Origin: Curtobacterium citreum
GTDB lineage: Bacteria > Actinomycetota > Actinomycetes > Actinomycetales > Microbacteriaceae
NCBI RefSeq assembly: GCF_006715175.1
Contig: NZ_VFMQ01000001.1
Span: forward strand, 2,852,001 to 2,916,000
Direction of reading: 5' to 3'
Length of the DNA: 64,000 nt
The position numbers were made by a program, and so were the translations under genes. The notes under the pieces were generated by a model. That model was not told the DNA's origin and ran no database searches. It saw only the letters and a program-made list of their open reading frames with translations. This document shows, piece after piece, positions 27,357 through 61,048 of this stretch; the first letter of the stretch is position 1, and every line of letters starts with the position of its first letter.

Positions 27357-27500
27357 CGTGCCGTGCCGATCCGCGCGTGGGGTGCCGATCCGCGCGTGGG
27401 GTGTCGATCCGCGCGCGGGATGGCGATCCGCGCATGGGAGGTCGCCCCTTCCGACCCGCCATGCGCGGATCCGCCTCCCACGTCACCCGTGATGGGACAG
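27357..27500. repeat. Composite 19-bp-array element, locus 1
   Basis: Four in-phase 19-bp units at 27365-27383, 27384-27402, 27403-27421 and 27422-27440 (consensus GCCGATCCGCGCGTGGGGT), then the same unit in the opposite orientation (ATGCGCGGATCCGCCTCCC near 27462) and a CCCATC/GATGGG-type segment that ends 6 bases before the stop codon of the minus-strand helix-turn-helix gene. It is the only locus with units in both orientations, matching its position between two convergent genes. Confidence 0.85.
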
Positions 27501-27505
27501 ATCGC

Positions 27506-27817
27506 TCAGGACGAGCTCACCGGCCCCGCGATCTCCCGGAGCGCGGCGAGGTGCGCCTGCCACGCGAGACGACCCGCCCGCGTCAGGGTCAGCGACGTCC
27601 GCGGGGTCCTGCCGACGTGCGCCTTGCCCACCGTGACGTACCCGGCCGCCTCGAGCGCGCTGGCCTGCTTGCTCAGCGCGGAGTCGGTGACCTCGAGCGC
27701 GTCCCGGACCTCGCGGAACGAGAGCGTCCCGGCCCGGTCGAGCGCTGCGACGACCGAGAACCGCACCGGGTTCTGCAGCAGGTCGTCGAGTCGGTGTCGC
27801 GGGTGCGAGCTGCTCAT
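27506..27817 (-). CDS. Winged-helix DNA-binding protein
   Basis: A 103-residue single-domain regulator of the winged helix HTH_34/MarR-like type (LLQNPVRFSVVAALDRAGTLSFREVRDALEVTDSALSKQASALEAAGYV, then a wing GRTPRTSLTLTRAG). ATG at 27817 overlaps the stop of the upstream membrane-protein gene (ATGA), so the two are one transcript. Proteins of this type are commonly cotranscribed with small membrane proteins and repress their own operon. The direct repeats at 28282-28309 are a candidate binding site. Confidence 0.85.
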   Translation of the reverse strand: MSSSHPRHRLDDLLQNPVRFSVVAALDRAGTLSFREVRDALEVTDSALSKQASALEAAGYVTVGKAHVGRTPRTSLTLTRAGRLAWQAHLAALREIAGPVSSS

Positions 27818-28236
27818 CCGCGGGACTCCCACGCGGCGCAGGCGAGCGACACGACGAGGACGAGACCGGACGTGACCGCCGACCACAGCACCGAGCCGTG
27901 CGCCCAGCCCACGACGGCGATCGCGGCGCAGTAGGTCAGCCCCCATGCGGCGACGTAGGTGATCCACCGCCGGCCGCGGGCGAAGGCGGCACGACCACGG
28001 ATCGCGGCGCTGAACCACAGGACGAGCGCGAGCACGACGACGATCGTGCCGACGTACGCCGCCGCGAAGGCACGGCCCGCTGACATCCCCATCGCGAAGG
28101 TCCCGAGGGACGTCGTCGCGCCGAGGGCGACGATGAAGGCGACGTACGGCCACCGGACGGCGTCGTGCGTGCGACGGGCGAGACGGTCGGCGTGCGCGAG
28201 GAGCGCGCGGGCCTCGGACGGTTGCGGATCGGACAT
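27814..28236 (-). CDS. Small membrane protein
   Basis: A 140-residue protein with four predicted membrane segments (WPYVAFIVALGATTSLGTFAMGM, AAAYVGTIVVVLALVLWFSAA, WITYVAAWGLTYCAAIAVVGWA, SAVTSGLVLVVSLACAAW) and a charged N-terminus of about 25 residues. I do not recognise a named family. AGAGGGGG precedes ATG 28236. It is translationally coupled to the winged-helix gene, which suggests a regulator and its target or sensor. Confidence 0.75.
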   Translation of the reverse strand: MSDPQPSEARALLAHADRLARRTHDAVRWPYVAFIVALGATTSLGTFAMGMSAGRAFAAAYVGTIVVVLALVLWFSAAIRGRAAFARGRRWITYVAAWGLTYCAAIAVVGWAHGSVLWSAVTSGLVLVVSLACAAWESRG

Positions 28237-28277
28237 GGTTCCCCCTCTGGTCCCTCCCCACCCCGGGAAGTGTTCCC

Positions 28278-28309
28278 ATCATGGCAACTACTTTCCAATG
28301 TGGCAAGTA
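28278..28309 (-). promoter_or_regulatory. Promoter with direct repeats for the membrane protein/winged-helix pair
   Basis: On the minus strand TTGCCA (28306-28301) and CATGAT (28283-28278) are 17 bp apart. Two copies of TGGCAA(C/G)TA (28282-28290 and 28301-28309 on plus) lie 19 bp apart, about two helical turns, and overlap both elements. This fits autorepression by the winged-helix protein. Confidence 0.5.
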
Positions 28310-28354
28310 CCGGTACCCGGCGACCCCCGCCCCACCGTCGGTAGGGTCGGCACC

Positions 28355-29344
28355 ATGAGCGGGGCGGACATCAGCGTGCAGGACTTCGTGATGCGCTTCG
28401 GCGACCGCGACGTGGTCGACGGCCTGTCCTTCGACGTGGCACCCGGCGAGACGTTCGGCCTGCTCGGCAGCAACGGCTCGGGCAAGACCACCACGATCCG
28501 GGCCCTGCTCGGCATCACGACCCCGACCGCCGGCACCCTGACGGTCGACGGCGTCCCGTACCGACCGGCGACCGGCGGCATCGGCTACCTGCCCGAGGAG
28601 CGCGGGCTCTACCGCAAGGAGTCCGTCATCGACGTGATGACGTACTTCGGCATGCTCCGGGGTCTGCGCCGTCCCGAGGCGACCGCGTGGAGCACCGCCT
28701 ACCTGGAGCGCGTCGGGCTCGCGGACCGCGCGAAGCTCCGCGTGGACAAGCTCAGCGGTGGGCAACAGCAGAAGGTGCAGCTCGGCATCACGATCATGGA
28801 CCGCCCGCGCCTGCTCATCCTCGACGAGCCGACGAAGGGCCTCGACCCGGTCAACCGCCGGCTGCTCCTCGACCTGGTCGCCGAGCGGAAGGCCGACGGC
28901 GCCACGGTCGTGCTCGTGACGCACCACATGGACGAGGTCGAGCGGTTGTGCGACCGGATCCTCCTGCTCAAGGACGGGCGCGCCGCCGCGTACGGCAGCA
29001 TCCCCGAGGTGCAGGACGCCTTCGGCGGTGCGGTCGCACACGTGACGCTCGACGGCAGCGTTCCGGAGTCGCCGCTGTACCGGGTGGTCCGGCACGAGGG
29101 GCACGTGGCGTACCTCGCCCTGACCGACGCCGCCGCGCCGGACGGATCGGACGTCCTCGCCGCGCTCGTGTCCGCCGGGGTGCACGTGACCGGGTTCACG
29201 ATGCGGCGGATCCCCCTCGACGAGATCTTCGTGCAGGTCTACGGCCACGACGCCGGGCACGACGACCTGCCCGCCACGAGCGAGCACGAGGAGACCAGCA
29301 CCAGCACCGGCACCGGCACCGGCGCGAGCGGGGCAGCCGCGTGA
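28355..29344 (+). CDS. ABC exporter ATP-binding protein, NatA-like
   Basis: A 329-residue ATPase: Walker A GSNGSGKTT near 39-47, EERGLYRKESV (the NatA-type segment), signature LSGGQQQKVQL, Walker B LLILDEPTKGLDP and switch histidine THHMDEVE. The C-terminal 90 residues are an accessory domain ending in a Ser/Thr/Gly tail with a TSTGTGTG run. ATG at 28355 is 7 nt after TAGGGT. It is coupled to the permease by a 4-base overlap. NatAB systems export sodium or drugs; the substrate is not known here. Confidence 0.88.
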   Translation: MSGADISVQDFVMRFGDRDVVDGLSFDVAPGETFGLLGSNGSGKTTTIRALLGITTPTAGTLTVDGVPYRPATGGIGYLPEERGLYRKESVIDVMTYFGMLRGLRRPEATAWSTAYLERVGLADRAKLRVDKLSGGQQQKVQLGITIMDRPRLLILDEPTKGLDPVNRRLLLDLVAERKADGATVVLVTHHMDEVERLCDRILLLKDGRAAAYGSIPEVQDAFGGAVAHVTLDGSVPESPLYRVVRHEGHVAYLALTDAAAPDGSDVLAALVSAGVHVTGFTMRRIPLDEIFVQVYGHDAGHDDLPATSEHEETSTSTGTGTGASGAAA

Positions 29345-30573: not shown

Positions 30574-30593
30574 CCGTCCCGTGGCCGGGTCGA

Positions 30594-30643
30594 CGACGGC
30601 CTGGAGGCGCGGGGCGGGCCCGCCACGCGCCTCCAGGCCGTCG
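30594..30643. repeat. GGCCTGGAGGCGCGG variant inverted repeat
   Basis: Eighteen-base perfect arms (CGACGGCCTGGAGGCGCG, 30594-30611, and complement 30626-30643); the loop itself contains the palindrome GGCGGGCCCGCC. This is the second version of the GGACGGGAGGC family (CTGGAGGC replaces CGGGAGGC in both arms). It lies between the convergent permease and TetR genes. Confidence 0.88.
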
Positions 30644-30657
30644 CCGGGCGCGCTCGT

Positions 30658-31281: not shown

Positions 31282-31392
31282 CCGCACAGTCCACAGGAGA
31301 CCGCTCGTTCCTGTCACATCCTCGTTCGGGGGGTACCGCGGTGCACGGTCATCCCGGCCGCCTGGCCGTCCTGCCGGCGGCCCGGTGGTGCC

Positions 31393-32058: not shown

Positions 32059-32189
32059 GGGGCCCTCCTCGTTTCCGGACGGTGCAACGGTAGGGGCCCG
32101 ACGCGCATTCCGGCGGTCGTGCGGCGCCGCGTGACGGGCTCGCGGGGTGCACGGCCCCGAGACTCGGCTCCGGGCTACGCTCTGGGGTC

Positions 32190-32741: not shown

Positions 32742-32751
32742 CCGCCCCGGG

Positions 32752-33288: not shown

Positions 33289-33392
33289 GCGTCGATCCTG
33301 GCGCACCGGCACGCCGGAGTCGGCCGCGGTGACCGGATCGAGATCGCTCGATGCTGGATCGTGACCCGGCTCGACGGTGAGCCCGTCGGCGG

Positions 33393-34277: not shown

Positions 34278-34457
34278 GCGCGCATGGTACCCACCGCCGG
34301 ACCGTGAGCGACCGGGCGGGCGCACCCCCGCGCCTCCTGTCCGACCCCCGAACGGGGTACGTCCTTGTCCGCCGCAGCACCGACTGCCGCGGCGTCCGGG
34401 CGGGTCTACCGTCTGTTGCGGGCGGCAACGGGGCCGCTCGACGACGAATCGAGCATC

Positions 34458-36239: not shown

Positions 36240-36368
36240 GCGGGCCATCCGACCGACCGGGGCCGTCGACGACACCGGTCGCCGGCAGCCCCGGTCGCCG
36301 GCAACGCCCGGCCGTCGGGGCACACGCGCCGTCAGGCGGTCGTCACGCACCGCCGGTAGCGTCCGGGC

Positions 36369-39576: not shown

Positions 39577-41082
39577 TCACTGCGCCAGGATCGCCGGGCT
39601 GGTGCCCGGCTGCATCCCGACGCCAAACGACGTCGCCGCGTCGTCGTTCGTGACCGACCAGAGGTCGCTGCTGTTCGTCTGGACGGCCACGACGTACCCG
39701 CTGCCGACCGCGGCGATCGCCGGGCTCGTGCCCGCAGCCATCCCGATGTCGAACGCGGTCGCCGCCTTGCCGTCGGTGATCGTCCACAGCTTGCCCGTGT
39801 TCGTCTGCACCGCGATGACGTACCCGCCGGACGGCTGCGCCAGGATCGACGGGCTCGTACCGGCGAGCATGCCGACGGGGAACGCCGTCGCCGCCTTGGT
39901 GTTCGTGACGCTCCACAGCGCGCCGGTGTTGGTCTGCACCGCGATGACGTAGCCGCCGTTCGCGGTCGTCGTCACGGACGGGCTCGTGCCGGTCTTCATC
40001 CCCACGCCGAAGTCCGTCGCGGCCTTCGTGTCGGTGATGCTCCAGAGGTCACCGGAGTTCGTCTGCACCGCCACCACGTAGTGCCCGCCCGCGGTCGCCG
40101 TGATCGACGGACTGGTGCCCGCGGCCATCCCGACCGGGAAGGCCGTCGCCGCCTTCGTGTTCGTGATGGTCCAGAGCGCGCCGGTGTTCGTCTGCACGGC
40201 GACCACGTAGCCTCCTCCCGACGTCGGGATGATCGACGGGCTCGTCCCTGCCTTCATGCCGACCGGGAAGGACGTCGCTGCACCGTCGGACGTGATCGTC
40301 CAGAGCGCGCCACCGGCGGCCTGGAACGCGGTGACGTACTTGCCGCCGCCGAGCGTGGCGATCGCAGGGCTCGTCCCGGAGGCGACGCCGACCGGGTACG
40401 CGGTCGCTGCCTTGCTCGCGGTGACGCTCCAGAGCTTCCCGGTGTTGACCTGCTCAGCCGTCACGTACGAGGTGGTGTGCACCGTGCCCGCCCCGGAACC
40501 GGAGCCGGACAGCGAACCGGTCGGCCGACCGACCACGTCCAGCAGCTGCTCCCCGGGCTCGGACCAGAGCGTCTGCTCCTTGACGCCCTCACCCGGAGCA
40601 GCCGCCGCCACCATGTACCCGTTGCCCAGGTAGATGCCGTCGTGCAGGAAGTTCCCCGAGGTCGTGCCGTTCGACGTCCAGAACAGCACGTCGCCGGGCT
40701 CGGCGTCCGCCCGGGACACGAGGTTCCCCTTGAGCGCGTTGAACTCGTCGCCGACGACGGGACGCGAGGTCCCGTTCGACAGGTCGATGCCCGCCTGGAG
40801 GTACGCCTTCCAGACCAGCCCGGAGCAGTCCCACTCCGTGGGTCCGTTGCCGCCGAGCACGTACTTGGTGTCGGCAGGCCCGCCGTCCGTCCTGCTCCAC
40901 ATGCTCTCCGCGTACGCGATGGCGCTGTTCGCCGCGGCGGAGGGCCCTCCCCCGGTGTTCAGGCCCGGTTGACTCGCGAGGGCCGGAGCCGCGAGGCCGA
41001 CCGTCCCCGCGATGGCGACCGCGGCGACCGCGATCCCGATGAACGTCTTCTTCGCCCGCGAGCGCACCGTCGTCGGTGTCAC
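39577..41082 (-). CDS. NlpC/P60 endopeptidase with seven C-terminal repeats
   Basis: A 501-residue secreted protein. After a signal peptide (FIGIAVAAVAIAGTVGLAAPALA) comes an NlpC/P60 peptidase: catalytic C in EWDCSGLVW, GDVLFW, and H in FLHDGIYLGNGYM. A Gly/Ser linker leads to seven repeats of about 43 residues with a YVVAVQTNTGxLWTIT...KAATxFPVGM...GTSPSI pattern, which fits a seven-bladed propeller and probably binds glycan or cell wall. I choose GTG 41082 because AAGGGG lies eight bases before it; GTG 41109 lacks a site. It cleaves peptidoglycan peptides; it stands alone. Confidence 0.85.
   Translation of the reverse strand: MTPTTVRSRAKKTFIGIAVAAVAIAGTVGLAAPALASQPGLNTGGGPSAAANSAIAYAESMWSRTDGGPADTKYVLGGNGPTEWDCSGLVWKAYLQAGIDLSNGTSRPVVGDEFNALKGNLVSRADAEPGDVLFWTSNGTTSGNFLHDGIYLGNGYMVAAAAPGEGVKEQTLWSEPGEQLLDVVGRPTGSLSGSGSGAGTVHTTSYVTAEQVNTGKLWSVTASKAATAYPVGVASGTSPAIATLGGGKYVTAFQAAGGALWTITSDGAATSFPVGMKAGTSPSIIPTSGGGYVVAVQTNTGALWTITNTKAATAFPVGMAAGTSPSITATAGGHYVVAVQTNSGDLWSITDTKAATDFGVGMKTGTSPSVTTTANGGYVIAVQTNTGALWSVTNTKAATAFPVGMLAGTSPSILAQPSGGYVIAVQTNTGKLWTITDGKAATAFDIGMAAGTSPAIAAVGSGYVVAVQTNSSDLWSVTNDDAATSFGVGMQPGTSPAILAQ
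39580..40467 (-). repeat. Seven tandem repeats of about 129 bp (propeller-type)
   Basis: These bases encode repeats of 43, 43, 43, 43, 43, 42 and 39 residues. The middle repeats are most alike, while the first two have diverged (EQVNTG, FQAAGG). Seven copies match the blade number of a common propeller; the short last copy may be completed by the strand before the first. Confidence 0.85.
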
Positions 41083-49716: not shown

Positions 49717-50593
49717 CAGGCGCTGGCTCCTGGTGGCCGCGGTGGCACCGATCCTCTGGGGCAGCACGTACTTCGTCACGAGGACGTTCCTCCCGCCGGG
49801 TGCTCTCTGGGGCGGGACGCTGCGGGCGCTGCCGGCAGGCCTCCTCCTGCTCGTCCTCGTCCGGCGGGTCCCGCGTGGCTCCTGGTGGTGGAAGGCCGTC
49901 GTGCTCGGGGTGCTGAACGTCGGCGGGTTCTTCGCGCTCGTCTACCAGGCCGCACAGTTGCTCCCCTCGAGCATCGCGTCCACCGTCATGGCGACCGCAC
50001 CGATCGCCCTCGCACTCCTCGCCTGGGTCCTGCTCGGTGAGCGCCCGTCCGGGTGGCGCCTCGCTGGGGCATCGGTCGGGGTCGGCGGCGTCGCGTTGCT
50101 CCTCCTCGGTGGACCCGGCCGCGTCGACGGCACCGGAGTCGTCGTGTCGGTCGCGGCGATGGCGTCGTCGTCGCTGGGCTTCGTCCTCGGCAAGAAGTGG
50201 AACACCGAGGTCGGCGTCCTCCCGTCCACGGCGTGGCAACTCCTCGTCGGGGGCGTCCTGTTGCTGCCGGTCGCGTTCCTCGTCGAGGGGCCGCCGCCCC
50301 GGCTCGATCCTGTGGCGCTCACGGCGACCGTGTGGCTCACGGTCGTCGCGACCGCCCTCGCGTACGTCGCCTGGTTCGCGGCGCTCGACCACCTCCGCGG
50401 TGACGTGATCGGACTGGTGGGGTTGCTCAACCCGGTCGCCGGCGTGCTGCTCGGCGTCCTCGTGGGCGCGGAAGCGATCGGGAGCCGTCAGGTGATCGGT
50501 CTCACGCTGGTCCTGATCGGCATCGCCGGACCGCTCCTGATCGGCAGGCGCCGCACGACTGCGACAGGCCGAAGCGCCCGCCCGCACCCCTAG
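49706..50593 (+). CDS. EamA-family (DMT) transporter
   Basis: A 295-residue drug/metabolite transporter with ten helices and two EamA halves (LWGSTYFVTRTFLPPG in the first, SSSLGFVLGKKWNTEVG in the second). LAWVLLGERPSGWRLAGASVGVGGVALL is the repeat end typical of the family. Substrates range from amino acids to purines. ATG 49706 is leaderless with TATATT 7 nt upstream. The MarR gene diverges from it, so this is a regulated efflux unit. Its stop overlaps that of the next, convergent gene by three bases. Confidence 0.87.
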   Translation: MEDNRRWLLVAAVAPILWGSTYFVTRTFLPPGALWGGTLRALPAGLLLLVLVRRVPRGSWWWKAVVLGVLNVGGFFALVYQAAQLLPSSIASTVMATAPIALALLAWVLLGERPSGWRLAGASVGVGGVALLLLGGPGRVDGTGVVVSVAAMASSSLGFVLGKKWNTEVGVLPSTAWQLLVGGVLLLPVAFLVEGPPPRLDPVALTATVWLTVVATALAYVAWFAALDHLRGDVIGLVGLLNPVAGVLLGVLVGAEAIGSRQVIGLTLVLIGIAGPLLIGRRRTTATGRSARPHP

Positions 50594-51450
50594 CGGTCGA
50601 ACAACCCGCCGAGGAAGTCGCCACCGAGGTTCGACGCCTGCTCGCCGAGCCCGCTGGCCTGCTCGCCCAGACCGCTCGCCTGCTCGCCGAGCCCCGACAC
50701 CTGCTCCCCGAGACCCCCGGCGTGCTCGCCGAGCCCGCCGAGGAACTCCTCGCCACCCGCGGCGATCCCTTCGAAGTCCACCCCGAGGTCCGCGGCTCCC
50801 GCGAGCACCGGCCCCGCTGCGGCACTCAGCACCGCGCCACCGGCGACCGCGACCGCCAGGCCCCCGACCGCCATCGCGCCGGCACCGACCGCGGCGCCGC
50901 CCGCGAACGACCCACCGAGGCCGCCGAGCGCCCGCTTGAGCATGCCAGGTCGGGAGACCTCGGCCCGGGTCGCCGCGCGGGCCATCCCGCCGGCGGAGTC
51001 GTCGCGCAGGTGCTCGTGTGGCGGGAGCTCGGAGTTCAGTCGGTCCCGGACCTGCTGGCGCTGCTCGGGCGTGAGGCGCGCGAAGGCGTCGTGGTGGACC
51101 TGCTCGAGGCGCTCCGGCGGTGCTGTGCGGAGCAGGTAGTCGTACTTCGCGAGCGCGACGGCGTCCGGGTCGGCCTGCCCGCGACGCTGCGGCTGCCCGT
51201 CCTGCTGCGCTTGCCCGTCCTGCTGCGGCTGACCGTGCTGCTGGGGCGCCGTCGTCTGCGGAGCCTGCTGCGGTCGCTGCCGGTCGTCGCCCGTCAGCTT
51301 GTCCGCCGCGGTGCGGACGATGTCCCGCCAGTCGGTCCCGCCCGACGACTGCGGGTTCGCGGCGTCCGGGCTCCCCTGCCCGCGCTGCTTCTGCATCTGC
51401 TTGTCGATGACCTTCGAGGCCATGCCGAGGATCCGGTTGAGGTTCGCCAT
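50590..51450 (-). CDS. Conserved hypothetical protein with glycine-rich heptads
   Basis: A 286-residue protein, function unknown. Parts in order: an N-terminal conserved segment (MANLNRILGMASKVIDKQ, DWRDIVRTAADKLTGDDR), a Gln/Pro-rich spacer (QQHGQPQQDGQAQQDGQ), a conserved DPDAVALAKYDYLLRTAPPERLEQVHHDAFARLTPEQRQQVRDRLNSELP domain, a Gly/Ala hydrophobic region (about 180-225, possibly membrane-associated) and five GLGEQAS-type heptads at the C-terminus. ATG 51450 has AAGGTTGG upstream. A similar middle segment is seen in other Microbacteriaceae proteins. Confidence 0.7.
   Translation of the reverse strand: MANLNRILGMASKVIDKQMQKQRGQGSPDAANPQSSGGTDWRDIVRTAADKLTGDDRQRPQQAPQTTAPQQHGQPQQDGQAQQDGQPQRRGQADPDAVALAKYDYLLRTAPPERLEQVHHDAFARLTPEQRQQVRDRLNSELPPHEHLRDDSAGGMARAATRAEVSRPGMLKRALGGLGGSFAGGAAVGAGAMAVGGLAVAVAGGAVLSAAAGPVLAGAADLGVDFEGIAAGGEEFLGGLGEHAGGLGEQVSGLGEQASGLGEQASGLGEQASNLGGDFLGGLFDR
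50632..50736 (-). repeat. Five 21-bp tandem repeats (GLGEQAS heptads)
   Basis: Five units encode GLGEHAG, GLGEQVS and three GLGEQAS in the minus-strand gene. The units are nearly identical in DNA, so they are recently expanded and may vary in number between strains. Confidence 0.9.
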
Positions 51451-51459
51451 GACCCAACC

Positions 51460-51486
51460 TTTGTGATCACACATGTGAGCACTCAG
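51460..51486. promoter_or_regulatory. Possible operator upstream of the heptad-protein gene
   Basis: TTTGTGATCACACATGTGAGCACT is AT-rich for this genome and contains the palindrome TGTGATCACA and an overlapping CACATGTG. It lies 13 bp before the ATG at 51450 and resembles Crp/Fnr-type sites, without a full match. Confidence 0.35.
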
Positions 51487-51562
51487 CGATGCGCCCGTGC
51501 GGCACCCGACCAACGCCTGCGCATCTGCTGGGCCGCTCGCACGACGGCCTCGGGCTCCCGTC

Positions 51563-51687
51563 GTTCCGGCCCATCGCAGCCGACATGAGAGGCCGGATCG
51601 CGCATCGGCAGTCGGAACGGACGACGCACCATGCGCAGATCGACCTCCCACGCGCGGTTCGGCCTCCCACGCGCGGATCGGCTCCCC
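51563..51687. repeat. Composite 19-bp-array element, locus 2
   Basis: A segment with CCCATCGCAGCCGACAT and GTCGGAACGGACGAC is followed by three in-phase 19-bp units at 51631-51649, 51650-51668 and 51669-51687 (consensus ACGCGCGGATCGGCCTCCC). The last unit ends 5 bases before the stop codon of the minus-strand alditol oxidase gene. It matches the loci at 27357, 57285 and 60906. Confidence 0.87.
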
Positions 51688-51692
51688 GCGCG

Positions 51693-52958
51693 TCAGGGCA
51701 GCAGCCGCGCCAAGTACGCGTTGCGGAACCGTCCGGTCGGGTCGAGGTCCCGCGCGAGCGCCGCGAAGTCGTCGAGCCGCGGGTACGCCTCGTGCAGTCG
51801 CTCGACACCCGCCGCGAACACCTTGCCCCAGTGCGGCCGCGGGTCGAAGGGCGCGAGGACGTCCTCGATCCGCGCGACGGCCGCTGCTACGGCCTCGGCG
51901 TCCCGCCGGAACGTGAAGTGCAGGCCGACCGACTGGCGTCCGGACGACGGCGCGAGCCATGCGGTGTCGGCGGCGATCGTCCGGACCTCGGCCGCGATGA
52001 GCAGCGGCGCGAACACGGGATCGAGCGGACGCAGGGCCTCGAGGGCGGCGACCGCGTGCGACGCGGGGATCAGGTACTCGGCCTGGATCTCGGCGCCGGT
52101 GGACGGCGTGAACGTCGACCGGAAGTGCGGCAGCCGCTCGGACCAGGGTCCCGGGACGCCGCCCTGCTCGGTGACGCCCGCGGTGTCGTTCTCGCCCGGG
52201 TGCACGGGGCCGTCGGCCGGCCGGGCGCCGAGCGCGACGAGGTCGACCGTCGGGGCCGGCTCGTCGGTCCGGCGCTTCGTCCAGACCTGGCGGGCACCGC
52301 GGTCGTCGAACGAGGTGAACAGCGACACCGAGTACGCGTCCGACACCACCGCGTCGAAGTGCTCGAGCACGGCGTCCCACGGCAGGTCGAGGTGCACCGT
52401 CGTGGCGACCTGGAACGTCGGCTCGATCGCGAGCTCGACCGCCGTCACGACCCCGAGCGCGCCGAGCGCCACCCGATGGGCGTCGAGGGCGTCGTCCGGC
52501 GTCGACGCGTCCACCCACGCGACGTCGCCGGAGGCGCGCACGACCTCCAGGCCGACCACCGCATGCGCGAGGGACGGGTTGCGCACGCCGGAACCGTGCG
52601 TGCCGGTGGCGACCGCCCCGGCCACGGAGATGTGCGGCAGGGAGGCGAGGTTCGCGAGGGCCCAGCCACGAGCCTCCAGGCCGGCCGCGACCGCGGCGTG
52701 CGTCATGCCTGCGGCGACCCGGACGACCCGGCGGTCGGCGTCGACGTCGAGCACGGGCGGCAGCCCGGCGACCGTCACCTGCACGCCGTCGGTGTCGGCG
52801 ATCCGGTTGAAGGAGTGTGTCGAACCGAGCGCCGTCAGGCGCGGCGTGGCCGCGACGACGCGGCGGACCTCGTCGACGGAGGTCGGCGAGAGCAGGTCGG
52901 ACGCACCGTAGGTGACGTTCCCGGCCCAGTTCGTGCGCGTCGTCGCAGCCACGGTCAC
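51693..52958 (-). CDS. aldO: Alditol oxidase
   Basis: A 421-residue VAO-type FAD oxidase close to Streptomyces coelicolor AldO. TNWAGNVTYGASDLL, LGSTHSFNRIA (H48, which binds FAD covalently), SLPHISVAGAVATGTHGSGV, GVPGPWSERLPHFRSTFTPS and RPHWGKVF are near-diagnostic. It oxidises the terminal carbon of alditols such as xylitol or sorbitol with O2 to the aldose and H2O2. Start GTG 52958 lies 4 nt beyond the araA stop, so the gene is the last one of the arabinose operon. L-Arabitol to L-arabinose is the reaction that fits the operon. Confidence 0.92.
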   Translation of the reverse strand: MTVAATTRTNWAGNVTYGASDLLSPTSVDEVRRVVAATPRLTALGSTHSFNRIADTDGVQVTVAGLPPVLDVDADRRVVRVAAGMTHAAVAAGLEARGWALANLASLPHISVAGAVATGTHGSGVRNPSLAHAVVGLEVVRASGDVAWVDASTPDDALDAHRVALGALGVVTAVELAIEPTFQVATTVHLDLPWDAVLEHFDAVVSDAYSVSLFTSFDDRGARQVWTKRRTDEPAPTVDLVALGARPADGPVHPGENDTAGVTEQGGVPGPWSERLPHFRSTFTPSTGAEIQAEYLIPASHAVAALEALRPLDPVFAPLLIAAEVRTIAADTAWLAPSSGRQSVGLHFTFRRDAEAVAAAVARIEDVLAPFDPRPHWGKVFAAGVERLHEAYPRLDDFAALARDLDPTGRFRNAYLARLLP

Positions 52959-52962
52959 GGTC

Positions 52963-54486
52963 CTAGAACCCCCGGTCGAGACGGTGCCACGCCTGCTGCA
53001 GCCGGAGCTCGTCGCGGAAGCCGCGGGCCGTGGTGTGCTCGTCGATGACCAGGAACTCGGTGCCGACCATCGTCGCGAGGTCCTCGACGACCTGCAGGCC
53101 GACGGCCGTCGTCATGACGGTGTGGTGCGCGGCGCCGGCGGTGAGCCAGGCCTCCGCGGCGACCGGGAACGACGGGCGCGGCTCCCACACGGCACGGCCC
53201 ACGGGGAGCTTCGGCAGCGCCTCGGTCGGCGGCACCACGTCGACGACGTTCGCGGTGAGGCGGAAGCCGTCGCGGGTGTCGGAGAGCGCGACGACGACGG
53301 CCTCACCCGCGTCGGCGGTGAAGACCAGGCGGACCGGGTCGTCCTTGCCGCCGATGCCGAGCGGGTGGATCTCGAGTGTCGGCTTCGAGGTGGTGAGGGT
53401 CGGCGAGACCTCGAGCATGTGCGCGCCGAGGATCTTCTCCGCCCCCGGGGTGAGGTCGTACGTGTAGTCCTCCATCAGCGAGGCGCCACCGGGCAGCCCC
53501 GCACCGGCGACGTTCATCGCACGGACCAGGACGGCCGTCTTCCAGTCGCCCTCGGCGCCGAAGCCGTACCCGTCGGCCATCAGGCGCTGGACGGCCAGGC
53601 CGGGCAGCTGCTTGAGCGTCCCGAGGTCCTCGAAGTTCGTGGTGAACGCCGCGGAGCCGTTCTGCTCGAGCAGGGCACGGAGGCCGAGCTCGATCGCGGC
53701 ACCGTCGCGGAGCGCGTCGTGGCGGTCGCCGCCGTTCCGCAGCTCCGGGACCACGTCGTAGTCACGCTCGTACGTCGCGACGAGTGCGTCGACCGCCGCG
53801 GTGTCGGCCTCCGCTTCCGCGACGGCCGCCGCGAGCTCGTTGACGGCCCAGGTGTTCACCTGCACGCCGAGCTCGATCTCGGCCTCGGTCTTGTCGCCCT
53901 CGGTCACGGCGACGTAGCGCATGTTGTCGCCGAAGCGGGTCAGCTTGAGCTCCCGCACCGCGGCGGCGCCGGCTGCCGCGCGCGTCCAGTTCGCGACCCG
54001 GTGCTGCACCCGTTCGTCGGACACGTGTCCGACCGCGGTCGCGTGCCGGACACCGAGGCGCGCCAGGGCGTACCCGAACTCGCGGTCGCCGTGCGCGGCC
54101 TGGTTGAGGTTCATGAAGTCGAAGTCGATGTCGCCCCACGGCAGGGCGACGTTCGCCTGCGTGTGCAGGTGCAGCAGCGGCTTCGTCAGTGCCTGCAGGC
54201 CGCCGATCCACATCTTCGCCGGGCTGAACGTGTGCATCCACGTCGTGACGCCGATGACCTTGTCGTCCGCGCTCGCCTCGATGAGGGCGCGGCGGATGCC
54301 GTCGGCGTCCTTGAGGACGGGCTTCCAGACGAGCTTGACCGGGAGCGCGCTCTCGAGCTGCGCGTGCACGGCGCGGCTCTGCTCCTCGACCTGGCGGAGG
54401 GTCTCCTCGCCGTACAGGCCCTGCGACCCGGTGAGGAACCAGACCTCGTAGCTGTCGAGGGTGGCCTGGGGGTTCACCTGCGTCAT
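52963..54486 (-). CDS. araA: L-arabinose isomerase
   Basis: A 507-residue enzyme of typical length. It shows [74 protein letters not shown] and [24 protein letters not shown], all conserved in AraA; the second and last contain active-site or metal residues. It converts L-arabinose to L-ribulose with Mn2+. ATG 54486 overlaps the araD stop (ATGA) and has AAGGAG upstream. The operon order is araB, araD, araA, aldO. Confidence 0.95.
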
Positions 54487-55193
54487 CGCATGGCTCCTTC
54501 GGGGTTCTGTCCGTAGACGTTCTGGTAGCGATCGAAGAGTCGATCGACGTTCTCCTGGGCGATGGGGACGAGCTCCCCGCCCTGCTTCGCGATGTGCACG
54601 GTGCGGGCGACGTCCTCGCACATCACCGCGGCCTTGACGGCGTCCTTCGCGTCCTTGCCGATCGTGAACACGCCGTGGTTCTGCATGAGCACCGCGCGGC
54701 TCCGGTGACCCGCGAGGGTGTCGACGATGCCGCGGCCGATCGAGTCGTCGCCGATGATCGCGAACGGGCCGACCGGGATCGGGCCGCCGAACTCGTCCGC
54801 CATCGCCGTGATGACGCACGGGATCTCCTCGGCGCGGGCCGCCCACGCCGTCGCGTAGGTCGAGTGGGTGTGCACGACCCCGCCGACCTCGGGCATGTTC
54901 CGGTAGACGAAGGCGTGCGCGGCGGTGTCGGAGGACGGGCCGTGGGCGTTGCCCCAGCCCTCGGCCGGGACGCCGTCGAGCGTGCAGACGACCTGGTTCT
55001 CGGGGGTCAGGTCGTCGCTCGACACCCCGCTCGGCTTGATCACGAACAGGTCCGTGCCGGGGACGCGCTCGGACACGTTGCCGCCGGTCCAGATGACGAG
55101 GCCGTAGCGGACGAGCTCGCCGTGCAGTGTCGCGACGCGCTTGCGCGCGCGGGCGACGGCCGCCTCGGTCTCGTCGGTGGTCAGGTCCGTCAT
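54483..55193 (-). CDS. araD: L-ribulose-5-phosphate 4-epimerase
   Basis: A 236-residue class II aldolase-fold epimerase: [22 protein letters not shown] is the substrate-phosphate segment, [13 protein letters not shown] holds the zinc histidines, and [25 protein letters not shown] is the family signature with the third zinc histidine. It converts L-ribulose 5-phosphate to D-xylulose 5-phosphate. ATG 55193 overlaps the araB stop (ATGA), and its own stop overlaps the araA start. Confidence 0.95.
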
Positions 55194-56977
55194 GCGGTCG
55201 GCTCCTTCTCGGTGTGCTGGGTGGGCGCTGCGTCGGCCGTGCCGGCGTCGGCCGCGGCGGCGTCGATGTCGGCCACGTCGGCGTCGGCCGTCCCGTCGCC
55301 GGCGTCGGCCTGGAGGCGCGGATCGCCCCCGTCGGTCGGCTCGCCCTGGTCGGTGGTCGGGCTGGTGCGGGTCGCCGCTGCCGCCACGTCCTGCACCGGC
55401 AGCGCCGCGCGGTACCGGGCGAGGTAGTCCTGGAAGCCCTGGACGTCCCGCTCCTCGGGATCGGCGACGTGCACCGAGTCACCCCCGAAGACCGTCTCGG
55501 CCAGGAAGTCCGCGAGCGACCGGTCGGTGTGCTCCAGGTAGGCCGCGAGGACCGCGATGCCCCAGGCGCCGCCCTCCCCCGCGGTCTCCTCGAGCGCGAC
55601 CGGCACGCGGAGCGCCGCGGCAAGCAGGCGTTGCGGCGCACCCGGCGTCCGGAAGAGCCCGCCGTGCGCGGTCATCCGGTCGACGGCGACGTGCTCGCCG
55701 TGCAGGACGTCCATGCCGATCGCGAGCGTGGCGAAGGCGCCGTGCACCTCGGAGCGGACCAGGTTGCCGAGCGTGAAGCGGGCGCCCGGCGTGCGGAGGA
55801 GCAGCGGTCTGCCGTCCTCGACGCCCGTGACCGGCTCGCCGGCCAGGTAGTTGAAGGACAGGAGCCCACCCGCGTCGGGGTCGGCGTCGACCGCCTCGGC
55901 GAGGAGCGTCGCGTACACGTCGTCGACGGGCAGCGGCGAACCCGAGGCCTCGGCGAACCGCCCGAACACCCGGGCCCACGCGGCGATCTCGCTCGCACCG
56001 TTGTTGCAGTGCACCATCGCGACGGCGTCGCCGGCCGGGGTCGTGACGACGTCGAGCTCCTCGTGCGGGGTGCCCAGCGGGCGCTCGAGCACGACCATCG
56101 CGAAGATGCTCGTGCCGACGCTGACGTTGCCGGTGCGAGGTGCGACGGCGTTCGTCGCGACCATGCCCGTGCCCGCGTCGCCCTCCGGCGGGCAGAACGC
56201 CACGCCCGGCTGCAGCGTGCCCGTCGGGTCGAGCCACGCGGCGCCCTCGGGGGTGAGCGCACCGGCGTCCTCGCCCGCGACGAGCACCTCGGGCAGGAGG
56301 GCGCGGAGGTCCGGCACCCGTCCGCCGAGCAGCTCCTGCGTCGTGGCGAGCATGGCGGCGTCGTAGTCGCGGCGGCCGGGCTCACCCGGTGCGCTGTCGA
56401 CGGGGCCGGAGTCGATCGGGAACAGCCCGCTCGCGTCGCCGACGCCCAGGACGTCCCGGCCGGTGAGCACCCGGTGGACGTATCCGGCGAGGGTGGTGAT
56501 CCCGGCGACGTGCGCCACGTGCGGTTCGTCGTCGAGGACGGCCTGCGCGAGGTGTGCGATCGACCAGCGCTGCGGGACGTTGAAGTCCAGCGCGGCGCTG
56601 AGCTGTTCGGCGGCCGGCCCGGTCGAGGTGTTGCGCCACGTGCGGAACGGGACGAGCAGCTCGCCGTCCGCGTCGAACGGCAGGTAGCCGTGCATCATCG
56701 CAGAGACCCCGGCGGCGCGGAACGTCGTCGGGCGGACCCCGACCTGCCGCTCGACGTCGGCGACCAGGTCGGCGTACGCGGCGCGGACCCCGGTCTCGAC
56801 GGACTCGAGGGAGTACGTCCAGCGTCCGTCGACGTACTCGTTCTCCCACTCGTGGGACCCGCTCGCGATCGGGCGGAGGTCCTCGTCGACGAGCACCGCC
56901 TTGATGCGGGTCGAGCCCAGCTCGATGCCGAGTGTCGTCCGGCCCTGTTCGACCTGCTGTCGGCGGTCGTCGCGCAT
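55190..56977 (-). CDS. araB: L-ribulokinase with low-complexity C-terminal tail
   Basis: A 595-residue FGGY-family kinase: [23 protein letters not shown] (ATP/Mg), [36 protein letters not shown], and [26 protein letters not shown]. It phosphorylates L-ribulose at O5. The domain ends near residue 540; the last 55 residues are Ala/Asp/Thr-rich ([21 protein letters not shown]), have no counterpart in the family, and include DPRLQ encoded by 55306-55321, one arm of the GGCCTGGAGGCGCGG repeat. ATG 56977 is the first gene of the operon behind two LacI operators. Confidence 0.93.
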
Positions 56978-57005
56978 CTGTCCCTCCGAGACCTCGTCGT
57001 CCTGC

Positions 57006-57039
57006 GTGAGCGCTCACATCATGGCAGGTGAGCGCTCAC
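57006..57039 (-). promoter_or_regulatory. Tandem LacI operators of the arabinose operon
   Basis: Two perfect copies of GTGAGCGCTCAC at 57006-57017 and 57028-57039, with centres 22 bp apart (two helical turns), 29 and 51 bp before the araB start. The same 12-mer lies before chvE at 62188-62199. This is the central LacI/GalR palindrome, so one LacI protein probably controls both operons. Confidence 0.88.
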
Positions 57040-57207
57040 ACCCGCAACGCGACGGCGCGCCGGGCACGCTCGGTGCGGCACTCCACGCGCTGAGCGACAC
57101 ATCACGGGCGGCCACGCGCGTGAGGTGTCGCCCAGCCCGTGAGCTCCCGCGCGCACGGCCGCGCAGGTGGCAGGCCATGCCCGCGGGACCGGCCACGGGG
57201 GGTGGGA

Positions 57208-57270
57208 GCGACCAGCCTGGAGGCGCGGCGCACGCCCGGCGGACCGGCACCGCGCCTCCAGGCCGGTCGC
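57208..57270. repeat. GGCCTGGAGGCGCGG variant inverted repeat
   Basis: Left arm 57208-57231 (GCGACCAGCCTGGAGGCGCG then GCGC) and right arm 57247-57270 pair over 24 positions with two mismatches. It is directly followed by the composite array element, whose first conserved segment (GACGCACGTTCCTGCCCATC) starts at 57271. Confidence 0.82.
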
Positions 57271-57284
57271 GACGCACGTTCCTG

Positions 57285-57684
57285 CCCATCGCACCCGACA
57301 TGGGAAGTCGATCCGCGCGTACCTGGTCGGAACGAACGACCGACCATGCCCGAATCGACCAACCACGCGCGGAACGCCCCGCTCCCCGCGCCCCCAGCAG
57401 CCTCCGAGGGCAGCCCGTGCACGTTTTTCCCATCGCACCCGACATGGGAAGTCGATCCGCGCGTGCCTGGTCGGAACAAACGACCAACCATGCGCGGAAC
57501 GACCGCCTCAGCGCGGAACGCCCCGCTCCCCGCGCCCCCAGCAGCCTCCGAGGGCAGCCCGTGCACGTTCTTTCCCATCGCGCCCGACATGGGAAGTCGA
57601 TCCGCGCGTGCCTGGTCGGAACGAACGACCACCTATGCGCGGAACGACCAACTATGCGCGGAACGACCCACCACGCGCGCCCCG
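57285..57684. repeat. Composite 19-bp-array element, locus 3 (three tandem 144-bp units)
   Basis: Three copies at 57285-57428, 57429-57573 and 57574-57684 (last one truncated). Each copy has a TTCCCAT/ATGGGAA inverted repeat around CG(C/A)CCCGAC, GGAAGTCGATCCGCGCGT, GGTCGGAACGAACGACC and ATGCGCGGAACGACC units; copies 1 and 2 share a long segment with GCAGCCTCCGAGGGCAGCCC. The final copy carries 19-bp units (ATGCGCGGAACGACCAACT, ATGCGCGGAACGACCCACC) that end 3 bases before the LacI-1 stop codon. Confidence 0.87.
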
Positions 57685-57687
57685 CCC

Positions 57688-58737
57688 CTACGCGCCGGCG
57701 GTGCTCTCGCGGACGACGAGCGTCGGCGTGACCGCGGTCGAGGCCGGCCGACCCCCGGCGACGAGCTCGAGCAGCGACCGCCCGGCGATCCTCCCGAGCT
57801 CGTCGAGGCGCATGTCCACCGTCGTCAGCGGCGGGCGGCTCGCGAGTGCCACCACGTCCCAGTCGTCGTACCCCGTCACCGCGACGTCCGCGGGTACCGA
57901 CCGCCCGGTCTCCCGCAGGCGGTCGCACACCCCCCGGGCGATCTGGTCGTTCCCGCACACGACCGCGTCCACCCTGCCGTGCGTGCGGTCGAGCTGGTCG
58001 ACGGCCCGGCGCCCCCAGCGCTCCGACCAGTCGCCGAACAGCGGCTCGCCGGTCATCCGGTCGCCGAGCACCGAGCGCGCCCCGGCGGCCCGGAGCTCGG
58101 CGGAGCGCGCGGTGACCGGCCCGGTGACGACCGCGACCCGTCGGCGCCCGAGCCCGAGGACGTGTGTCGCGGCGGCAGCGGCGCCCGCGGCGTCGTCGAG
58201 GGTGACCGACACGTCGGCGTCCGACGTGGACGGCGTCAGGGCGTAGACGACGGGCACCGGGACCGGGACCTCGATCGGCGGCCGGGCGTCGGCGGAACGG
58301 CCGGTGACGATGATGCCGTCGACACCGCGGGAGACGAGCGAGCGCAGGTAGTGGGCCTCGCGCACGTGGTCGTCGCGGGTGTCGGCGACCAGGACCATGA
58401 CCTCGCCGGCGGACAGGGCGTCCTCGGCGCCGAGCAGCACCGGCATCGTGAAGCGGCCGAACGAGTCGGTCGTCACCATCCCGACCGTGTACGAGCGACC
58501 GGACGACAGTGCCCGGGCCCGCGCGTCGCCGACGAACCCGAGCTGCTCGGCGGCGGCCTTGACCCTCGCCCGGGTCTCGGTACGGAGCTGCCCGGTGTCG
58601 TTCAGCGCCTTCGAGGCGGTCCCGATCGACACCCCGGCGAGCGCCGCGACGTCCGCGATGCGAGCGGGACGCCCGGGGTGCCCGGAGTGCCCGGGGCGCC
58701 CGAGGTGGGCAGGGTGGCCAGAGGGGTCGTGCGACAC
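57688..58737 (-). CDS. LacI-family regulator (LacI-1)
   Basis: A 349-residue LacI/GalR protein: helix-turn-helix RIADVAALAGVSIGTASKALND at about 26-47, hinge helix TRARVKAAAEQLGFVGDARARALSSGRSYTVGMV, and a periplasmic-binding-protein-like core ending LVVRESTAGA. The N-terminal 25 residues are a HPG/RPG-type low-complexity tail (SGHPAHLGRPGHSGHPGRPAR) encoded by short GC-rich repeats. GTG 58737 has GGAAAGGA upstream. It diverges from the GH127 gene, whose promoter holds the GGAAAGCGCTTTCC palindrome, its likely target. Confidence 0.9.
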   Translation of the reverse strand: MSHDPSGHPAHLGRPGHSGHPGRPARIADVAALAGVSIGTASKALNDTGQLRTETRARVKAAAEQLGFVGDARARALSSGRSYTVGMVTTDSFGRFTMPVLLGAEDALSAGEVMVLVADTRDDHVREAHYLRSLVSRGVDGIIVTGRSADARPPIEVPVPVPVVYALTPSTSDADVSVTLDDAAGAAAAATHVLGLGRRRVAVVTGPVTARSAELRAAGARSVLGDRMTGEPLFGDWSERWGRRAVDQLDRTHGRVDAVVCGNDQIARGVCDRLRETGRSVPADVAVTGYDDWDVVALASRPPLTTVDMRLDELGRIAGRSLLELVAGGRPASTAVTPTLVVRESTAGA

Positions 58738-58825
58738 GGCAACGTCCTTTCCGGGACGATCGTCCCCCGTCGGAGCCTACGGGAAACGGCTCTTGCGCCC
58801 GGGACCGACCTGCCGTACGGTCATC

Positions 58826-58843
58826 ACGGAAAGCGCTTTCCGT
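58826..58843 (+). promoter_or_regulatory. LacI-type operator before GH127
   Basis: ACGGAAAGCGCTTTCCGT is an 18-bp perfect palindrome with the central AGCGCT of LacI/GalR sites. It lies 89 bp after the LacI-1 start and 65 bp before the GH127 start. It differs from the GTGAGCGCTCAC operators of araB and chvE, which points to a separate regulator. Confidence 0.82.
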
Positions 58844-58907
58844 CCGTCGGACGCGTCGGTCCCCGTCCCGGTCCCGACGCGGGAGCGCCCGAGCGCGAGG
58901 AGGCGCC

Positions 58908-60890
58908 GTGACGACCACGCTCCCCACCGACAGCCGAGCACGGACCGCGACCCCGGCCCTCCCGACCGCCGGTGCAAACCTCGCGCTGCAGCCGCTCCCG
59001 ACCGGCGACGCCCGGATCACCGGCGGCTTCTGGGCCCTGCGGCAGGACCGCAACGGCCGCGACGCGATCCGCAGCGGGTACGACCGGCTCGACGCGGCCG
59101 GGAACTTCCGGAACCTGCGCATCGCCGCGGGCGACGAACAGGGCGAGGCGGTCGGTCCGGTGTTCATGGACTCGGACGTCACCAAGTGGCTCGAGGCGGT
59201 GGCGTGGGAGTACGGCCGCGCCCCCGCCGAGGACCTCCTCGCCCTGCAGCGCGAGGTCACCGCCCTGTACGCGAGGGCGCAGGCCGCGGACGGCTACGTC
59301 GACTCCGTGCAGCAGGTCCGCGGCAAGGGCGAGCGGTACGTCGACCTGCAGTGGAGCCACGAGCTCTACTGCGCCGGGCACCTGTACCAGGCGGCGGTCG
59401 CGCAGCACCGGGCGACGGGCGACACCGGGCTCCTCGACGTCGCGATCAAGAACGCCGACCACCTCGTCGCCACCTTCGGCGACGGGCCGGGGCAGACCGT
59501 GGACGTCGACGGCCACCCGGTGGTCGAGACGGGCCTCGTCGAGCTGTACCGCGAGACCGGCACCCGCACCTACCTCGACCTGGCGCACTGGTTCGTCGAC
59601 GCCCGCGGGCACGGCATCATCGAGCGCGCCGGCGGTGAGCCGACGTACTTCTCGGACCGGGTCCCGGTGCGGCAGGCGACCACGGTCGAGGGCCACGCCG
59701 TGCGCGCCGTGTACCTCGCCGCCGGCGCCGTCGACGTCGCGGTCGAGACCGGCGACGCCGAGCTGCTGGCCGCGAGCGAGCGGCAGTTCGCCGACATGCA
59801 GGCCACGAAGGCGTTCATCACCGGCGGCCTCGGCGCGCGCTGGGACCGGGAGGCGTTCGGCGACCCGTACGAGCTCCCCACCGACCGCGGCTACGCCGAG
59901 ACCTGCGCGGCCATCGGTGGGATCCAGTGGGCGTGGCGCCTGCTCCTGGCGACCGGCGAGTCCGTCTACGCCGATGCGATCGAACGCCTGCTGTACAACG
60001 CGTTCCTGGCCGGCGTGAGCCTGGCGGGCACCGAGTACTTCTACGTCAACCCGCTGCAGCACCGCGACGGGGCCCACCCGGACGAGAACCGCTCCCCCGC
60101 CCACGGCCGCCGCGGCTGGTTCGACTGCGCCTGCTGCCCGCCGAACATCATGCGCACGTTCGCGAGCCTGGACGGCTACCTGGCCACCGCGACCGACGGT
60201 GGCGTGCAGGTGCACCAGTACGCCACCGCCGACCTCGGCCCGGTCCGCGTCGAGACCGGGTACCCGCACGACGGCCGCGTGGTCGTCACGGTCACGCAGG
60301 ACGGGCCGCTCGCCCTCGGGCTGCGCATCCCCGCCTGGTCGGACACCACGACGGTCATCGGTCCGGACGGCACAACGCACCCCGTCCCGGGCACGCGACA
60401 CGTCCTGGACCGCACGTGGTCGGCGGGCGACACCGTCGAGCTCGTCCTCGACACGACACCGCACCGGTACGTCGCCGACCCCCGCATCGACGCCGCCCGC
60501 GGGCAGGTCGCGATCGAGCGCGGGCCGCTCGTCTACGCCGTCGAGCAGGCGGACCAGCACGGCTTCACGGTCGACGACCTGACGGTCGACGCGTCGGCGC
60601 CGATCACCGAGGAGCGTCGCGACGACCTCCTCGACGGCGTCGTCACGCTGCGCGTGCCCGGATCCGCACCGTCCCGGCACGAGCAGGCAGCGTGGCCGTA
60701 CCAGCGGCTCGACACGGACCGGACGGGAGGCACGGACCACCCCGCGGACGCGACCAGCGTCGACGACGTGGCCGGGTCCGGCGACCGCGCCACGATCCTC
60801 CAGTCCGTCACGGCGACCGCCGTGCCCTACTACGCCTGGGCGAACCGAGGTCCCGAGCCGATGCGCGTCTGGATCCCGCTCGCGCGGTGA
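58908..60890 (+). CDS. Beta-L-arabinofuranosidase, GH127
   Basis: A 660-residue enzyme of the GH127 family. E331, C333, C409 and C410 (YAETCAAIGG and FDCACCPPNIMR) align with the zinc site and cysteine nucleophile of Bifidobacterium HypBA1 (E338, C340, C417, C418 from memory). It has no signal peptide, so it acts in the cytoplasm, releasing L-arabinose from beta-L-arabinofuranosides such as those of plant extensins. GTG 58908 has GAGGAGG upstream. Near the C-terminus, residues DTDRTGGTDHP are encoded by 60720-60735, an arm of the GGACGGGAGGC repeat. Confidence 0.92.
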   Translation: MTTTLPTDSRARTATPALPTAGANLALQPLPTGDARITGGFWALRQDRNGRDAIRSGYDRLDAAGNFRNLRIAAGDEQGEAVGPVFMDSDVTKWLEAVAWEYGRAPAEDLLALQREVTALYARAQAADGYVDSVQQVRGKGERYVDLQWSHELYCAGHLYQAAVAQHRATGDTGLLDVAIKNADHLVATFGDGPGQTVDVDGHPVVETGLVELYRETGTRTYLDLAHWFVDARGHGIIERAGGEPTYFSDRVPVRQATTVEGHAVRAVYLAAGAVDVAVETGDAELLAASERQFADMQATKAFITGGLGARWDREAFGDPYELPTDRGYAETCAAIGGIQWAWRLLLATGESVYADAIERLLYNAFLAGVSLAGTEYFYVNPLQHRDGAHPDENRSPAHGRRGWFDCACCPPNIMRTFASLDGYLATATDGGVQVHQYATADLGPVRVETGYPHDGRVVVTVTQDGPLALGLRIPAWSDTTTVIGPDGTTHPVPGTRHVLDRTWSAGDTVELVLDTTPHRYVADPRIDAARGQVAIERGPLVYAVEQADQHGFTVDDLTVDASAPITEERRDDLLDGVVTLRVPGSAPSRHEQAAWPYQRLDTDRTGGTDHPADATSVDDVAGSGDRATILQSVTATAVPYYAWANRGPEPMRVWIPLAR

Positions 60891-60905
60891 CGCCGGTGGG
60901 CGCGC

Positions 60906-61048
60906 GACGCACGTTCCTGCCCATCGGACCTGACATCGGAAGCCGATCCGCGCGTACTCGGTCGGAACGGACGACCGACCATGCGCGGATCGGCACCCCG
61001 TGCGCGGAACGGCCTCCCACGCGCGGAACGGCCGACCACGCGCGGGTT
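60906..61048. repeat. Composite 19-bp-array element, locus 4
   Basis: It opens with GACGCACGTTCCTGCCCATC (60906-60925), identical to 57271-57290, then CATCGGAAGCCGATCCGCGC, GGTCGGAACGGACGACC and three in-phase 19-bp units at 60981-60999, 61000-61018 and 61019-61037, with a degenerate fourth up to the LacI-2 stop codon at 61051. The element lies between the convergent GH127 and LacI-2 genes. Confidence 0.88.

Follow-up and report, generated by a model that had tools for sequence, protein, structure and literature searches.

What are the short repeats that stand directly behind stop codons at several places in the chromosome of Curtobacterium citreum, and to what kind of element do they belong? 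The question is raised by a stretch of 64,000 nucleotides, here called the window, from contig NZ_VFMQ01000001.1 of assembly GCF_006715175.1 (the C. citreum genome below). A preliminary description of the window had reported a 19-bp unit repeated in phase at four intergenic loci, and had proposed either a 3′-untranslated RNA function or a mobile non-coding element. The analysis described here indicates that the unit is one arm of a long hairpin within a hairpin-forming element of around 130 bases, which recurs in this genome and in much of the genus. Whether it represents a genus-restricted, dispersed, non-autonomous family of extragenic palindromes, working like the REP and BOX repeats, is in our judgement about evenly balanced, because few empty sites could be read. 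Its function and movement are what we infer from the comparisons below.

The 19-bp unit forms one arm of a long hairpin

The window holds six copies of the element at four loci:

27363..27507, minus strand: element copy 1; small hairpin 27476-27497, long hairpin 27422-27475
27363-27438, minus strand: the units of copy 1, four direct units with the 3′ arm counted among them
51559..51692, plus strand: element copy 2; core 51559-51647, units 51629-51692
57274..57417, plus strand: element copy 3; core 57274-57362, first in a tandem run of three whole elements
57419..57562, plus strand: element copy 4; core 57419-57506, second in the run
57563..57684, plus strand: element copy 5; core 57563-57651, long hairpin 57596-57648, third in the run
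60909..61050, plus strand: element copy 6; core 60909-60997, three units and a degenerate fourth (60979-61050)

Ten copies from the C. citreum genome align to one consensus, and 89 positions make up the shared consensus. A 5′ stretch like GCACGTTCCT is followed by a small hairpin, TTCCCATCG..CGACATGGGAA, and then by the long hairpin, which consists of the inverted 19-bp unit (its reverse complement, forming the 5′ arm), GGTCGGAACGNACGACC and the unit itself (the 3′ arm). The long stem has about 23 possible pairs, with GGTCG-GAACGNA-CGACC at its top; by eye, GGGAAG precedes it and CTCC follows it in the ten-copy consensus. In this genome two further direct units usually come after the 3′ arm. 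Units with no more than two mismatches in the core are found at +19, +38, +57 and +76 in 40, 37, 12 and 5 of 45 copies respectively (fixed positions, no threshold), so that the usual form is one inverted and three direct units rather than an open-ended array.

The arrays were correctly described, Tandem Repeats Finder (TRF) giving a period of 19 at all four loci (27363-27438, 4.0 copies with 89% matches; 51629-51692, 3.5 copies; 57623-57679, 3.0 copies; 60979-61045, 3.5 copies), but the description was incomplete. Similarly, the four loci stand, but one of them contains more than an array: TRF also reports a period of about 144 bp at 57274-57683, which corresponds to three complete elements in tandem. 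The presence of units in both orientations at 27.4 kb had been taken as one array for each gene end. This is instead the ordinary structure, as each locus has one inverted unit, the 5′ arm of its long hairpin.

In both extra units agreement with the consensus is better for the core GCGCGGAWCGGC (mean 0.88 and 0.83) than for the spacers (0.66 and 0.60), and on this comparison each unit seems to be constrained on its own. The spacers are more alike within a locus than between loci (0.67 versus 0.56; none of 1000 permutations over 38 loci reached this), which points to local duplication of units. The window contains 12 sequences within three mismatches of GGTCGGAACGNACGACC, where 4.5 would be expected, and none of 100 shuffles reached 12. 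The loose unit pattern CATGCGCGGANCG, allowing two mismatches, is not above chance in the window (35 versus 29.5 expected, equalled in 20 of 100 shuffles), so that the evidence comes from the phase of the units and the composite build. The 12-mer GCGCGGATCGGC is found 58 times in the C. citreum genome and its reversed control not at all. A DNA uptake word was considered and rejected because few core copies lie outside elements: 49 of the 58 exact cores are in or at listed elements, from coordinates read by eye.

Pairing in the long stem

The structure was examined in an alignment of 79 rows from 68 source sequences, taken from the C. citreum genome and its relatives; one row (L077:4062, plus strand) is the reverse reading of another and was counted all the same. 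The alignment was fitted to the structure of the model, and in it 83.9% of cells pair, compared with 77.2% after shuffling, with both-sided changes in 194 cells compared with 91. For the four inner pairs, the only ones free of the model, the values are 72% and 49%. The pairs of the long stem covary. Three of the four window copies that were folded are stable relative to shuffled sequences, with z from -3.6 to -5.1.

If the hairpin acted specifically as RNA, G-U pairs would be expected to outnumber their A-C counterparts. In the long stem the two are equal (91:91), nor is there a link to the direction of transcription: the small counts within the C. citreum genome are 16:12 where co-directional genes are read with the element, 18:18 where they are read against it and 25:24 between convergent genes. 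The proposal of a 3′-untranslated function exercised specifically at the RNA level is not borne out. In a crude letter test the loop was in the inverse sense in 4 of the 79 rows. Pairing of the 5′ CGTTCC with the GGAACG of the loop as a pseudoknot, judged by eye only, did not look consistent.

Distribution in the genome, the genus and beyond

The 3.6-Mb chromosome of C. citreum carries at least 45 forward copies at 42 loci. This is a lower bound, 150 of 9944 first-look candidates having been scored; the rows kept have E-values up to 9.4e-5, reverse readings of the same hairpins were put aside and three weak rows (2961687, 2781508 and 3449419) were left out. Stricter filters were applied in searches across more than 40 genomes. 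Among 60 Curtobacterium genomes the model search was positive in 44 and gave no match in 16. A spaced pattern, in which the base that distinguishes two types of arm was left free, gave the identical division with the same 16 negatives, and its reversed control found nothing in any genome. The first description, of a repeated intergenic element that is composite and linked to gene ends, is supported by further copies both in its own genome and across the genus.

Beyond the genus, matches were obtained in 6 of 299 genomes of the family sample, five of them within Curtobacterium and one (G088, in our numbering of genomes) from another genus. The copies in G088 are a different palindrome built on GTGTGAGGACG words, likewise near gene ends. 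These sequences (L097, L101-L107) are long palindromes in which each arm contains two GTGTGAGGACG words at a distance of 19 bp, and the copies are nearly identical. In 84,980 species genomes a pattern of 20 fixed bases found 47 stretches, 46 with titles naming Curtobacterium and one Microbacteriaceae bacterium PS02333. One window copy used as a query had no match among plasmids and phages.

The statement that no such family has been described agrees with our searches, in that Rfam gave no match in the window above its curated cut-off and, among the papers listed by full-text searches of the open-licence literature, no description of such a repeat in Curtobacterium or Microbacteriaceae was seen. 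The kind of element is nevertheless well known, as both extragenic palindromes and composite repeats with a tandem module are established classes. At E<=1 in 57200-61100, Rfam also reports a sub-threshold DUF3800-VI RNA at 58931-58968 on the minus strand (30.1 bits, cut-off 35); it lies inside the called GH127 gene, away from the elements, and is probably a chance match.

Position relative to genes

The genes beside the window copies are as follows:

25594-27255, plus strand: alpha-amylase gene, beside copy 1
27506-27817, minus strand: winged-helix gene, beside copy 1
51693..52958, minus strand: ALO-domain / FAD-binding oxidase (aldO in the preliminary description), its 3′ end adjoined by the array of copy 2
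57688..58632, minus strand: LacI-type regulator 1 (LacI-1)
58908-60890, plus strand: GH127 gene, beside copy 6
61051..62097, minus strand: LacI-type regulator 2 (LacI-2), beside copy 6

Adjacency to a stop codon had been claimed for three minus-strand genes. It holds for the oxidase, where copy 2 ends 1 base short of the stop codon, and for LacI-1, where the three units of copy 5 run up to 57679 and the element ends 3 bases short. At LacI-2 the three units are separated from the stop codon by 13 bases, which a degenerate fourth unit occupies.

Across the 45 copies, 19 are in convergent, 24 in tandem and 2 in divergent contexts, compared with 18%, 58% and 24% of background intergenic bases (the window and 400-kb stretches of three relatives). 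Convergent contexts are enriched (p 1.5e-4) and divergent ones depleted (p 7.6e-4), with contexts taken from a home-made gene caller and one divergent copy (399111) reassigned by eye. In 34 copies the array points towards an opposing stop codon, and in 17 of these the distance between them is at most 30 bases. A scan for terminators with a U-tract over 50000-63000, a range that excludes the copy at 27.4 kb, found a single terminator-like site, at 62734, and none at an element; 1.9 would be expected by chance.

Another hairpin, GGAGGC..GCCTCC, is found no more than 300 bp away from 23 of the 45 copies. It constitutes a second intergenic family, perfect or near-perfect and often lengthened to GGACGGGAGGC..GCCTCCCGTCC, which is frequent between genes in the C. 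citreum genome and in G006, G003 and G012, and is probably the ordinary terminator-like hairpin of these genomes. Its members in the window are:

225, 4623, 15921, 27294, 30603, 37909, 57219 and 63486: GGAGGC..GCCTCC hairpins

Elsewhere in the window, a tandem repeat with a period of about 129 bp (39580-40311, 5.7 copies) lies within a called gene (39577-41067, minus strand) and probably encodes a repeat protein.

Arm types and concerted change

Two types of arm, CGCGCG and CGGGCG, were recognised. Among the matches listed (four genomes), CGGGCG arms are found in nearly all rows of G005, G016 and G036, and CGCGCG in most rows of the C. citreum genome, so that from these sequences the arm type appears largely genome-wide. 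At two orthologous loci, with flanking genes around 89% identical, both arms and the tandem units switch type together between species, one in C. citreum compared with G044 and the other in G038 compared with G032 and G001. A third locus, common to five species, keeps the same arm type and differs in its spacers alone. It seems unlikely that independent point changes in each copy caused the concerted switch, which could have come about by copying, by conversion or by co-evolution with one factor acting in trans.

Comparison of sites between species

At one convergent locus in G006, G012 and G002 the two stop codons are 102 bp apart, and the element takes up the whole of this gap. Another hairpin occupies the locus in G003, whose adjacent transporter has 98% identity to the one in G006. 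In C. citreum, as in several other genomes, the gap is short and the neighbouring gene differs; the element is beside the same small gene in G001, G005, G011 and G044, with a deleted form in G032. The gap upstream of recO, compared in 30 genomes, contains the element or its remnants in C. citreum, G056, G052, G031, G010 and G009, and, as seen by eye, unrelated inverted repeats in many others. The families of inverted repeat in this gap (L139-L168) vary by species, for example GAGCGGGC..GCCCGCTCGG or GAGGTCGCACG..CGTGCGACCTC, and by eye some also have an extra copy of the 3′ arm. The RecO match itself reads through one in-frame TGA in two non-carriers (G051:C1:1357033-1357830 and G040:C4:126355-127146), which may be where the match ends or may indicate that the gene is broken.

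A closer comparison is possible between G006 and G012, whose 400-kb stretches show about 94% identity where they align. Their sites, merged by hand, number 21 and 25, and they have 18 in common. Seven of these were confirmed by blastn, one lies immediately upstream of recO in either genome, and ten were matched only by the offset of their coordinates. Five of the ten unshared sites were readable in the other genome, as a short gap, another repeat, a 7-base gap between aligned flanks, a deletion scar in which the first eight bases of the element are kept before the break, and an 805-base stretch. One readout of ten sites gave four unmatched in the fetched stretch (of which 1822444 later proved to be shared), one matched on the right only, two filled in both genomes and three readable. 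A weak extra copy in G012 has as its G006 counterpart a terminator-like hairpin between the same stop codons. The terminal inverted repeats and target-site duplication of a miniature inverted-repeat transposable element were not seen by eye, in a set where few empty sites were readable and some were deletion scars.

Non-carriers are nested among carriers in two single-gene trees of 30 genomes, both with several weak forks. In the transporter tree G003 and G008 fall inside carrier groups, and absence requires 5 changes, as few as in 49 of 500 shuffles, so that it is hardly clustered; in the recO tree G053 falls inside a carrier group, eight non-carriers form one group and absence requires 3 changes. 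This nesting suggests that the whole set was lost or replaced more than once. The non-carrier G003 has a palindrome of its own, CGCTTCGTGAGCAGAAATGGTCGGGTCC and its inverse, in nine two-arm clusters in 400 kb (L189-L208).

Origin of the element and alternative explanations

The sites are dispersed, patchy and partly polymorphic, as would be expected of the mobile non-coding element that had been suggested, but no jump was demonstrated. Two candidate mobilisers were rejected. RAYT, the Y1 transposase (Y1_Tnp, PF01797), had no match among the 60 genus genomes, in a search whose control was positive in 5 of 14 known genomes. Reverse transcriptase (PF00078, RVT_1) is present in 28 of the 44 carriers and 12 of the 16 non-carriers (Fisher p 0.54) and absent from the C. 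citreum genome. The reverse transcriptase frame, often of about 497 residues, occurs in 40 of the 60 genomes (e.g. G027:C1:30211 and G006:C1:1774555).

Several observations weigh against a dispersed family of the REP or BOX kind. Besides the lack of a Y1 transposase and the independence of reverse transcriptase and element, the shared fractions of 18/21 and 18/25 sites suggest long residence, neither a target-site duplication nor a clean insertion was found, and one empty site is a deletion scar. There are no near-identical dispersed copies, the best non-neighbouring pair in C. citreum being 88% identical and the median pair 69%. The structural evidence has its own weak points: the shuffle controls leave relatedness in and the alignment was fitted to the model, the copy at 51559 folds poorly (z -1.5), and the small hairpin tilts to G-U (48:28).

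Each of the other explanations that we considered takes up part of this evidence. The element might be a bidirectional 3′-end structure maintained by the host, a terminator or protector of mRNA ends for converging genes, each copy being locally useful and its spread incidental. This we regard as unlikely. A role at 3′ ends is itself plausible, by analogy with Streptomyces clavuligerus, a GC-rich actinobacterium in which U-poor stem-loop transcript ends are reported in the excerpted account (PMC8269248), and from the position of the copies: the bias towards convergent ends and away from divergent promoters, the arrays close to opposing stop codons, the 102-bp gap filled from stop to stop, the replacement of the weak G012 copy by a terminator-like hairpin in G006 and the strand symmetry of the stem all suit it. 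It leaves unexplained why an 89-position consensus recurs at unrelated sites, why the core is conserved in units outside the hairpin, and why arm types are genome-wide and whole sets absent from nested species; nor does any U-tract terminator coincide with an element in the region scanned. Alternatively, the inverted unit and the direct units, usually three, might serve as an array of binding sites for a DNA-binding protein, such as a chromosome-organising or regulatory one, whose specificity differs by species. This would account for the conserved core, and in its favour are the core GCGCGGAWCGGC kept above the spacers in each unit, the joint switch of arms and units, and the lack of a preferred transcript strand in the long stem. 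We nonetheless think it unlikely. Binding to double-stranded DNA requires neither covariation of the spacers across the long hairpin nor conservation of the small hairpin, the depletion at divergent promoters speaks against a promoter regulator, and no candidate protein was identified. The divergence of the copies, the deletion scars and the failure to find a partner enzyme among Y1 transposases and reverse transcriptases would all fit decaying relics of a once-active element, retained in gene ends only by chance. Stem pairing, unit cores preserved above their spacers and the genome-wide difference in arm type between species speak against decay, which we think unlikely.

A mechanism for the dispersed palindrome family can be proposed. 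A trans-acting factor would recognise the core and the hairpin and copy or homogenise the elements, and extra units would arise by local duplication of the 3′ arm. Copies would survive chiefly behind stop codons; a hairpin that is symmetric between the strands would do no harm there, and where genes converge it might terminate or protect both transcripts. Loss of the factor would explain the copy-free species nested among carriers. It is possible, if less than likely, that such a system, recognising hairpins but distinct from Y1 transposases and reverse transcriptases, acts chromosome-wide and so changes the core type of all copies jointly; that its loss clears or replaces the set; and that related lineages such as G003 and G088 run analogous systems with unrelated palindromes.

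Relation to known repeats

The comparisons that follow draw on excerpts of the cited papers. REP sequences comprise GTAG- and CGTC-tagged families with stems of 5-13 bp near gene ends (PMC3733652); the roles of the GTAG tag and the transposase in REP systems are treated in PMC8266576, and REPIN numbers with and without RAYT in PMC8049555. Like the REP/REPIN-RAYT systems, the Curtobacterium elements are dispersed intergenic palindromes that favour unidirectional and convergent gene ends, form lineage-specific families and occur in tandem clusters, many REPs also lying less than 20 bp from gene 3′ ends (PMC3733652, PMC8049555). They differ in having no GTAG or CGTC tag at the base of the stem, as judged by eye on the ten-copy consensus, in the length of that stem (about 23 pairs compared with 5-13; PMC3733652), in the extra copies of one arm and in the absence of a Y1 transposase from all 60 genomes. 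The REP hosts named in the excerpt of PMC3733652 belong to other phyla, Actinobacteria not being among them.

The BOX elements of Streptococcus pneumoniae (boxA, repeated boxB and boxC, alongside RUP and SPRITE) are likewise composite intergenic repeats with a variable tandem module, over-represented between convergent genes and without a gene of their own (PMC3049150). Their tandem module is inserted between two end modules, whereas in Curtobacterium it is the repeated 3′ arm at one end, and sequence and host are different, homology having been compared through Rfam alone. With the STAR repeats of Staphylococcus the element shares interspersed intergenic direct repeats, species-specific loci and changes of copy number within a locus; STAR consists of direct repeats with spacers, while the Curtobacterium element is built on a covarying hairpin (PMC3532100). 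Finally, the GC-rich bidirectional or U-poor terminators of actinobacteria are comparable, in that they too place a stable GC-rich stem-loop at the ends of genes and lack a U-rich tail (PMC8269248). Those are defined by structure and position, whereas the Curtobacterium family has a long sequence consensus common to unrelated sites, as well as extra units beyond its stem.

Understanding of extragenic palindromes is best where a RAYT transposase accompanies them, and here a REP-like family of Actinobacteria is found without such a gene in 60 genomes. It combines a hairpin with extra copies of one arm, has core types that run genome-wide, and is present or absent as a whole set in close species. 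Because of these traits, the spread, upkeep and loss of such repeats should be approachable by comparing gene content between close carriers and non-carriers. Since the elements mark gene ends, they could also aid annotation and strain typing in the genus.

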